A stretch of DNA of 64,000 bases, taken from Cryomorphaceae bacterium (GTDB lineage: Bacteria; Bacteroidota; Bacteroidia; Flavobacteriales; UBA7430). This document shows positions 5,201 to 8,309 of this stretch, one piece after another. Where the stretch lies: NCBI GenBank assembly GCA_019649675.1, contig BOWN01000001.1:542868-606867 (forward strand), given 5' to 3'. The first letter of the stretch is position 1. Each line of letters begins with the position of its first letter. The notes below the pieces were generated by a model. The model was not told where the DNA came from. It saw only the letters and a list, made by a program, of their open reading frames with translations, and made no database searches. Both the position numbers and the translations under genes were made by a program.

Positions 5201-6980
5201 CTAATAAAACTTAGACCTATTGTCTTCTATTTCTGCCAACTCTTTTAATGCATTATAAACCTCGAAATCCACTCTTGGCTGAAGTTGGCTCTCTAACTGC
5301 TTTTTTAATGCTGAGTAGTCTTTGGGTGCCGGTGACTCTTTAATAGCTTCTGTTGAAACAACATATACACCGTTATTACCAACAACCGGATTTGACATCT
5401 GCCCTTGCTCGACACCATAAAATGCACCTACAATATTTGGCTCAAAGCCACCTGGTACTGAGTTGGAAGAAAAAGATAAAAGCGATACTGATTCTGGAAC
5501 AAGGCTCATCTCTTTTGCTAATTCATCTATGTTGGTTGCAGTAGATAGAGACTTTTTAAACTCTTCCTTGAGAGCTTGAGCGCTTTTTTCCCTTTTTACA
5601 GCAGCCTCTGCCTGAAAACGGACATCATCTAGGCTTTGGGTTCCCTCTTCTGTAATTTTGGTTAACATTGCAACAACAATTCGGTTGTTTTGATCGTCTA
5701 ACTTTACTGTGTTTATTCTTGTATTACTACTTAGGCCCAAAACACAAGGTTTCGGGCTTCTCCAACTCCAGAAACTGTCCGGTCTGCCTCCTGAATCGTT
5801 GCTGTTGTAAGGGCAATGTTCTTCTCATCAGCCATGACTTCAAGGCCACTTAAATCTGCGGCTGTGGCCATTTCGCTTGCCTGAGCATATATTTCATTTG
5901 CTGTTTCCTCGCTAGCATCGATTGCTATTTCAATTATAGCAACCTGAACAGAATCGCTAATGCGGGCGTTTAATCTTGCTAATTTATATGTATTATCTTC
6001 TTCGTAAGGGCCATATACAAATCCAATTTCCGCGTTTCTCATTACCGATTCAATTGCCGGAGAAAGCTGTCCTTCGGCATAAAAGTGGGGTCAAGGGGTG
6101 TCTGAATAGTTGTCAACAAACAACTCAGCATCTGTTGTGTTTTTAAAGCCTTCTACCGTTTCTTTGTTTTTTGTTGTTTATTAAAAACTTCTTTGTCTTC
6201 AATCAAAGATTGCAGTTGATTTTATTTCTTCTTTGTCAGAATCTGTCGGGAGAATCTCAAAATTGCTAATGTAAGCTCTCTGGATTCATCTTGTGGATAC
6301 TCCTCTTTATTTTCTCTATAATAAGCTTGTATCTCTGAGTCTGTTACTTCAATGTTTGTATCAAAAGGCTTAAAAACATATCGCCCACTCGTTTGCGCCC
6401 CTTGATCATTATAATATACCTGCGCATCTATGTTTGAAGCGGTTAATCCCTGACGAACTAAATTTGAATATTTTTGGCTTAGGCGCTCTTTTAAAATTAT
6501 ATTTTCAAAGTACATCCACCTCAAAGGGTCGGTATCATGAATCTGTTGAATAACTGAAGCTAGCTGCTCAGAAGAAACATCTTGGGTTGCCGCACCAAAG
6601 AATTGTCTTGCTGTTGAGGACATTTCTGCTGATTTATACCCAAAAGTTAATCCCGCTAATTCTTCAGAGCTAACCATAAGACCTATATCTTCATACTGCT
6701 CGTCCATAACTACTTCATTTACCTTATCTGACCACAATTTGTCGCGTAGACCATTTCGATCTTGTTGACCATTAAAAAATCGATCTATATTCTGTGCTTC
6801 TGTTTCAAACTCTCGATAGTCAACAACTTTGTTATTTATTTCCCCTAGTATTCCCTGCGAACCATTTAATAGTGAGGTTCCTGAGTTCATCAAGTCCCCT
6901 AAAAGAAAGGCTAAAAGGGCAAAGCCTATTGCTGCTATAACGAGGCCGGAGCGCTTTCTGAGTTTATCAAGTGATATCAT
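5201..6980 (-). CDS. PpiD/SurA-like periplasmic foldase lacking the parvulin domain (frameshifted)
   Basis: Membrane-anchored periplasmic folding factor: one N-terminal membrane helix (about residues 13-30, GLVIAAIGFALLAFLLG) followed by a SurA_N-type chaperone region. It is read as 6980-6222, 6042-5731 and 5740-5201, and sequence in the other frames joins the pieces. The reconstructed length is about 593 residues against roughly 700 for Flavobacteriia relatives. The shortfall is one block: within the uninterrupted 6042-5731 frame, the sequence passes from ...NARISDSVQ straight to VAIIEIAIDASEE. In relatives the parvulin domain (starting ASHILI) sits at exactly this point. It should therefore act as a chaperone without proline isomerase activity. 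It is the last gene of a leftward operon behind the CorC-like gene. Confidence 0.75.
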
Positions 6981-7043: not shown

Positions 7044-8309
7044 TTAGGGCGGCCAGAATAGTTTTACTGTCTCTATTCGGGTCTGATCTACCTTTAATAT
7101 TTGCAAAATAAACGAACCCACCTTTATTTGTTCGTTTTGTTTTGGTATGCATTCACAGAGGTTAACTATAAGGCCGCTAAGGGTTTCATAATCATCTGAT
7201 TCCGGAAGCTTTAAGTTGTATTTTTCATTTAAATAGTCAATTTTTTGGCGGCCAGAAAAAACAAACTCGTTCTCAGAAAAGCGGGTTTCTTCATAACCTA
7301 TTAGATCGTGTTCGTCTTGAATTTCTCCAAAAATTTCCTCTATTATATCTTCGATTGTAAGAAGCCCTGAGGTGCCACCGAATTCATCAATAACCAACGC
7401 CAAGCTTTTTCTTTCTTTGATAAAGAGGTTGAGTATATTATTCGCTGTCATGGTTTCAGGGACGAGCGCTACCGGAAGCAAAATAGATTTAATATCTGCT
7501 GGCTGCTTAAAAAGTTCATAAGAATGGGTATAACCAATGATTTGATCAATGTTGTCTCTATAAATCAATATTTTAGAAAGTCCGGTTTCTACAAACCTAT
7601 TGGTTAGCTTGTTTATGTCCACACTAATGTCCATTGCTATAATTTCATTCCTCGGAACCATACATTCCCTTGCTTTTACTTTTGAAAAATCAAGTGCGTT
7701 CTGAAATATTTGAATTTCGGGATCTAGTTGATTTTTGTCTTTTGCGTTGGTCGCATGCTCCTCTATATATTGCTGTAAATCAACTCTACCAAAAACTCTT
7801 TTTTGATCAAGTTGCTCTAAGTGCATTACTTTTTTTAACACAAAATTAGAAAGAGAAACAACTAAAGATGCAAAAAAATACAACCCAAAATAACATAGGC
7901 CTGCCGGAACAGCAAATAATCGAACAAAGCGATTCGCATTTATGCTAAACAGTACCTTCGGAATAAACTCTGCTGTTACCAAAACTATTAGTGTGGAAAT
8001 TAACGTTTGACCTAACAACACGAGGCTATCATTAGTGGTAAAATGATTTTTAATGTAGGGCGCCAATACTTTAGCCATTTCTATTCCATAAACCACTAAG
8101 GCAATGTTGTTTCCAACGAGCATCGTGGCAATAAATCGAGATGGTTTTTCTAAAAAGTATGATAAAATACGGGCGTTAAACTCTCCCCGTTTTTTCATAA
8201 GCTCTATGTGTAGCTTATTAGATGCAACAAAAGCGATTTCCATGCCTGAAAAAAAGGCCGAAAACAAAAGAGATAAAATGATAGACAAAAGACTACTGTC
8301 GGGGTCCAT
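7044..8309 (-). CDS. HlyC/CorC family transporter (DUF21-CBS-CorC_HlyC)
   Basis: An intact 421-residue inner-membrane protein. It has an N-terminal DUF21 domain with about four membrane helices (residues 1-190, including the SAFFSGMEIAF motif), a pair of CBS domains (about 205-325) containing MVPRNEI and a TIEDIIEEIFGEI stretch, and a C-terminal CorC_HlyC domain (about 340-420). Family members are linked to divalent cation efflux or resistance. The neighbours lptC and ppiD suggest an envelope role. GldE is a related paralogue, but its usual neighbours (gldD, ssb, mutY) are absent here, so I do not use that name. Confidence 0.88.
   Translation of the reverse strand: MDPDSSLLSIILSLLFSAFFSGMEIAFVASNKLHIELMKKRGEFNARILSYFLEKPSRFIATMLVGNNIALVVYGIEMAKVLAPYIKNHFTTNDSLVLLGQTLISTLIVLVTAEFIPKVLFSINANRFVRLFAVPAGLCYFGLYFFASLVVSLSNFVLKKVMHLEQLDQKRVFGRVDLQQYIEEHATNAKDKNQLDPEIQIFQNALDFSKVKARECMVPRNEIIAMDISVDINKLTNRFVETGLSKILIYRDNIDQIIGYTHSYELFKQPADIKSILLPVALVPETMTANNILNLFIKERKSLALVIDEFGGTSGLLTIEDIIEEIFGEIQDEHDLIGYEETRFSENEFVFSGRQKIDYLNEKYNLKLPESDDYETLSGLIVNLCECIPKQNEQIKVGSFILQILKVDQTRIETVKLFWPP

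Follow-up and report, generated by a model that had tools for sequence, protein, structure and literature searches.

The window, the whole stretch of 64,000 nucleotides that was analyzed, comes from an uncultured lineage of the order Flavobacteriales and carries on its minus strand (6980-5201) a ppiD orthologue whose sequence supports its description as a PpiD-type foldase from which the canonical parvulin domain has been cleanly lost. The loss extends beyond the window genome and is ancestral to three families (f1, f14, and f7), and it is recurrent, the same module having been removed independently in f33/f35.

In the window assembly the gene (5201-6980) is broken by several frameshifts; the parvulin-less form is intact, at 595 aa, in the nearest relative (L002), a member of the same genus, whose protein aligns by tblastn to the window gene across three frames (aa 1-240, about 241-418, and 420-595). 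A preliminary description of this DNA had estimated about 593 residues for the repaired protein and roughly 700 for its relatives, and both figures were right, the long forms fetched in the order having 685-732 aa. The stretch from 6042 to 5731 (minus strand) is a single unbroken frame of 103 aa that reads LARLNARISDSVQVAIIEIAID and passes straight from NARISDSVQ to VAIIEIAIDASEE without a gap, the D-S-V|Q-V codons lying at 5955-5941. At about 5950 the end of the module that we call P1 (…LARLNARISDS) meets the start of the module P3 (VQVAIIEIAID…), with no canonical parvulin (PF00639/PF13616) between them. None of the frameshifts falls at this P1/P3 junction, which sits within one frame as had originally been noted.

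The remaining features of the gene, all on the minus strand, were placed from Pfam matches, alignments, and the AF2 model of L002. The N-terminal membrane helix and the SurA-like N-terminal chaperone region (SurA_N_2/SurA_N_3, aa 1-195) occupy 6396-6980 according to Pfam and AF2, and the Pfam match to the SurA-like region covered 6225-6980 in the window (SurA_N_2, E 2e-23; 2.9e-22 in L002), in agreement with the earlier claim that the membrane anchor and the chaperone parts were kept. In the AF2 model the first strand and helix of the module P4 (aa 196-232, 6285-6395) come next, separated from the remainder of P4 by the inserted modules. These are P1, a degenerate parvulin-like module (Rotamase_2, aa 212-344 in L002; 5959-6284 by Pfam and AF2) that holds the first frameshifts, and P3 (aa 346-446, 5651-5952), which has a parvulin-like topology on the basis of AF2 and a P3-P4 profile match and contains a frameshift at about 5733. 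Between them, alignments and block occupancy define the junction at 5941-5958 that is devoid of the canonical parvulin P2, a module of about 93-114 aa in the long forms. The Rotamase_2-like body of P4 (aa 457-550) was located at 5339-5620 by Pfam and AF2, and Pfam matched Rotamase_2 to window positions 5204-5740 (E 1e-7). The protein closes with a long helix and a conserved DNR.FY end (aa 558-595, 5204-5317; AF2 and alignment), and this helix corresponds to the one completing the E. coli PpiD NC domain (PMC9643414).

Both flanks of the junction align with full-length relatives, and the block absent between them is a canonical parvulin that runs from (P)DSV-xARHILI (also ASHILI) to FGxHxIxV. 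Pfam detected Rotamase (PF00639) and Rotamase_3 (PF13616) in the full-length proteins at 1e-22 to 1e-36 and found neither above the cut-off in the short forms or the window pieces. Block occupancy and signature columns were read from an alignment of 62 proteins (20 short rows and 42 long rows). The parvulin block is occupied by 2-3 residues in the short forms of this alignment, and by 1-3 when the alignment of the order's PpiD tree is included, versus 93-114 in all long forms; the P2 signature (H…M..F…H) is present in the long rows at 38/42 (H1), 31/42 (M), 39/42 (F), and 39/42 (H2), and the same columns are gaps in 20/20 short rows. Genome-wide scans with PF00639, which do not depend on the alignment, gave a match at ppiD in the long-form genomes and none at ppiD in the short-form genomes. 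The alignment with relatives and the Rotamase/Rotamase_3 search, both proposed in the preliminary description, therefore came out as it had anticipated, and the contrary outcome that it named, a parvulin score for this very segment in relatives, was not encountered, as their junction segment yields no canonical parvulin score. Its claim of a clean parvulin loss stands for the module with the catalytic signature but has to be qualified for the flanking modules, which are themselves degenerate parvulin-like folds.

The AF2 models of the short L002 and the long L013 proteins (pLDDT 86.6 and 87.4, respectively) both contain a membrane helix (5-38 in L002, of low confidence there), a SurA-like helical domain closed by the long C-terminal helix, and modules with a parvulin-like order of elements. 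P1 is followed by P3, and the two interrupt P4, with P2 lying between P1 and P3 in the long form; in the short model the last strand of P1 (333-343) leads directly into the first strand of P3 (346-355). P1 of L002 matched Rotamase_2 (E 1.3e-14), and in four long-form genomes of other families (G266, G320, G375, and G269) P1 reached the PF00639 cut-off. Profile comparison with hhalign matched P3 to P4 with a probability of 96, and the comparisons among P1, P2, and P3 were weak (15-43), so the case for P1 being homologous to parvulins is carried by Rotamase_2 and by the PF00639 matches in the four genomes. From the Rotamase_2 matches of P1 and P4 and the PF00639 matches of P1 it follows that short PpiD is not free of parvulin-like folds. 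What it appears to lack, judging by sequence and models, is only a catalytically competent parvulin, with P1, P3, and P4 representing degenerate parvulin-like modules. Foldseek returned the PpiD-YfgM complex 8zht as the first match of both models, and whole-length profile matches to this PpiD extend over 45-717. The fold match of the short model to 8zht_A is whole-length (E 1e-29) with a TMq of 0.68, compared with 0.76 for the long model, chain A being of the long type and matched across the parvulin columns. Single-domain parvulins such as Pin1 and PrsA-PPIase were matched by the long model with a probability of 1.00, and the short model matched them weakly or not at all.

The window assembly is rich in indels, with 11 of 19 tested genes, PpiD included, frameshifted relative to a relative, and for this reason the broken genes in the window are not to be read as pseudogenes. 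(Between 260 and 35739, 10 of the 18 other tested genes were frameshifted in comparison to the same-genus relative G001.) An assembly of this quality might have dropped about 300 bases of the window genome at the junction, but the identical junction occurs in intact single frames in 16 other genomes of the three families and in eight fetched loci of another class. An assembly deletion was rejected on the basis of these intact relatives, its probability being negligible in our estimation. The frameshifted window copy could also be taken to represent a dying PpiD in which the parvulin loss was one step of decay. The orthologues are intact across the family, however, and the dN/dS values of the three readable pieces of window ppiD are about 0.06, 0.12, and 0.11, low ratios that fit a functional gene with sequencing indels and do not fit an old pseudogene. 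Furthermore, the excision follows a module boundary and the other modules stay conserved; decay is thus highly improbable. Expression of an intact PpiD in the window genome rests on the frameshifts being assembly errors.

An unbroken short ppiD with the same junction was present in eight other f1 genomes (594-599 aa), two f14 genomes (597-600 aa), and six f7 genomes (609-617 aa), one of which carries ambiguous bases. In a survey of 258 genomes, the other families of the order had open frames of about 683-756 aa among the matches listed. An rpoB tree, which is independent of PpiD, groups f1, f14, and f7 (83/83), and in a PpiD tree calculated without the parvulin columns a single branch (SH-aLRT 97) separates all short forms from the rest. 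The two results together are consistent with one ancestral loss for the three families. Upstream of ppiD in the window, at 7044-8309 on the minus strand, lies a gene that we take to be CorC/CNNM-like, in the place expected from 57 loci; a CorC-like gene directly precedes ppiD in these loci for both forms, including the divergent f7 members, and this conserved neighbor indicates that short and long PpiD are orthologues.

The phylum-wide sample revealed frames of 592-599 aa in f33/f35, which belong to another class of the phylum, and eight fetched f33/f35 loci (L155-L162) encode proteins of 589-591 aa that lack the same block at the same boundary. (Open-frame lengths suggest that about 22 of 148 sampled genomes fall in the f33/f35 short clade.) In the PpiD tree these short forms are nested among the long forms of their own class. 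Forcing both short groups together was 212 log-likelihood units worse (p-AU 2e-47) on a tree of the quick kind with one distant row on a very long branch, and a single origin of the two short clades was rejected by this AU test. Polarity is not given by unrooted trees alone, and the short form could instead be ancestral, with P2 inserted in other lineages. Such a history is very improbable indeed: long forms lie between the two short clades, each of which is nested among long-form families, a gain would require the same domain to have been inserted several times at one site, and E. coli PpiD, from another phylum, has a parvulin as its innermost domain (PMC9643414).

We consider it very probable that the ancestor of f1, f14, and f7 excised P2 in frame and that the remaining PpiD is a membrane-anchored holdase, with isomerization left to two other proteins. 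Sequence, Pfam, trees, and models show that exactly P2 was removed from between P1 and P3, and what is left is the membrane anchor, the SurA-like N/C chaperone domain, and three degenerate parvulin-like modules, none of which bears the catalytic signature. Deletion between two similar neighboring modules is a possible route; the sequence similarity of P2 and P3 is weak by hhalign. Short PpiD would act as a PpiD-like holdase that takes polypeptides leaving the Sec translocon and would have no prolyl isomerase activity of its own, the loss of activity being expected from the loss of the signature. Holdase function and Sec association are suggested by analogy to E. coli PpiD, whose parvulin is inactive. 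As E. coli PpiD is functional without its parvulin and that domain is inactive anyway, the short form is best read as a holdase without isomerase activity. Because P1 and P4 still score as Rotamase_2, one might propose that the remaining modules took over PPIase activity and that isomerase function was kept in the protein. Neither Rotamase nor Rotamase_3 reaches the cut-off in the window pieces or the short forms, however, and the P2 catalytic columns are absent from every short row, which leaves this proposal only a slim chance. For P1, P3, and P4, the catalytic residues at corresponding positions were assessed by visual inspection of the alignment.

Under the holdase reading, prolyl isomerization in the envelope would fall to two neighboring SurA-like proteins with two canonical parvulins each, a division of labor that we infer. 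Most of the short-form genomes scanned have four canonical parvulin domains in two other neighboring proteins (about 650-720 and 450-480 aa), and three incomplete genomes gave none. These two double-parvulin neighbors are likely the remaining parvulin PPIases of the envelope. G000:C2:29653-33286 and its equivalents in relatives encode these two neighboring double-parvulin proteins, which have about 715 and 462 aa in f1. The search for a YfgM-type protein gave weak TPR matches (PF09976) in short- and long-form genomes alike.

Short PpiD resembles E. coli PpiD in its single N-terminal membrane helix, its SurA-like N region closed by the C-terminal helix, and its nested domains (PMC9643414), and the independence of chaperone function from PPIase activity in the E. 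coli protein (PMC2956729) is counted as a further likeness. E. coli PpiD retains an innermost parvulin fold that is inactive (Weininger 2010, as cited in PMC9797188), whereas short PpiD has lost this module altogether; the short form does carry P1, the additional degenerate module of PpiD in Bacteroidota. Like the artificial E. coli PpiD-delta-Parv, the window protein is PpiD minus its parvulin domain. That construct complements the surA skp lethality in vivo and prevents aggregation in vitro (PMC2956729). It was made in the laboratory and is apparently less stable than the wild type, whereas the natural form has become fixed in three families and, by an independent loss, in two more. The parvulin-less core of SurA likewise works as a chaperone without parvulin domains (Behrens et al. 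2001, as cited in PMC2956729), but SurA is soluble and keeps its parvulins here, and it is the membrane-anchored PpiD that lost its domain.

Searches of the open-licence literature on PpiD without a parvulin, on PpiD in Bacteroidetes, and on domain loss turned up no earlier report, and one elsewhere is possible; within these limits a natural delta-Parv PpiD is new, and the surprise is that the same signature-bearing module was lost at least twice, each time at the same boundary. In f1, a marine family, and in a distant group nature appears to have repeated the artificial E. coli PpiD experiment. The role of the PpiD parvulin has been an open question, given that in E. coli this domain is inactive and could be dispensed with in the assays tried. 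In the short forms, evolution has removed a module whose catalytic signature is largely intact in sister lineages, and everything else stayed conserved. The short and long sister lineages constitute a natural experiment on how a PPIase domain is used beside the translocon, and the natural delta-Parv proteins provide a clean set for structural work and chaperone assays. Orthology would label the short proteins as "peptidylprolyl isomerase" despite their having no competent isomerase domain; by its ancestry and fold the short protein belongs with the PpiD orthologues, and it is not counted among the parvulin-type PPIases.

A more tentative suggestion, and one we regard as somewhat doubtful, is that P2 in Bacteroidota is a cassette open to repeated removal (precisely and independently excised at least twice, with P1 also lost in one f7 genus) that serves as a regulatory or docking part and not as a required enzyme. 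The recurrent loss may track a changed range of clients or a changed partner at the Sec translocon, such as the loss of a partner that docks on the parvulin "hand", of the kind predicted for DsbA in E. coli (PMC9797188).

Individual lineages depart further from the common architecture. PpiD of the f7 genus g32 (L099 and L100) has 580-581 aa and also lacks most of P1, as if stripped from the inside outwards. The f7 genus g27 (L096-L098) possesses an enlarged and divergent N-terminus (664-677 aa) in which SurA_N_2 scores under the Pfam cut-off, and these proteins have no canonical parvulin. L178 (f23) lies on an extremely long branch in the PpiD tree, and its parvulin region is aberrant.
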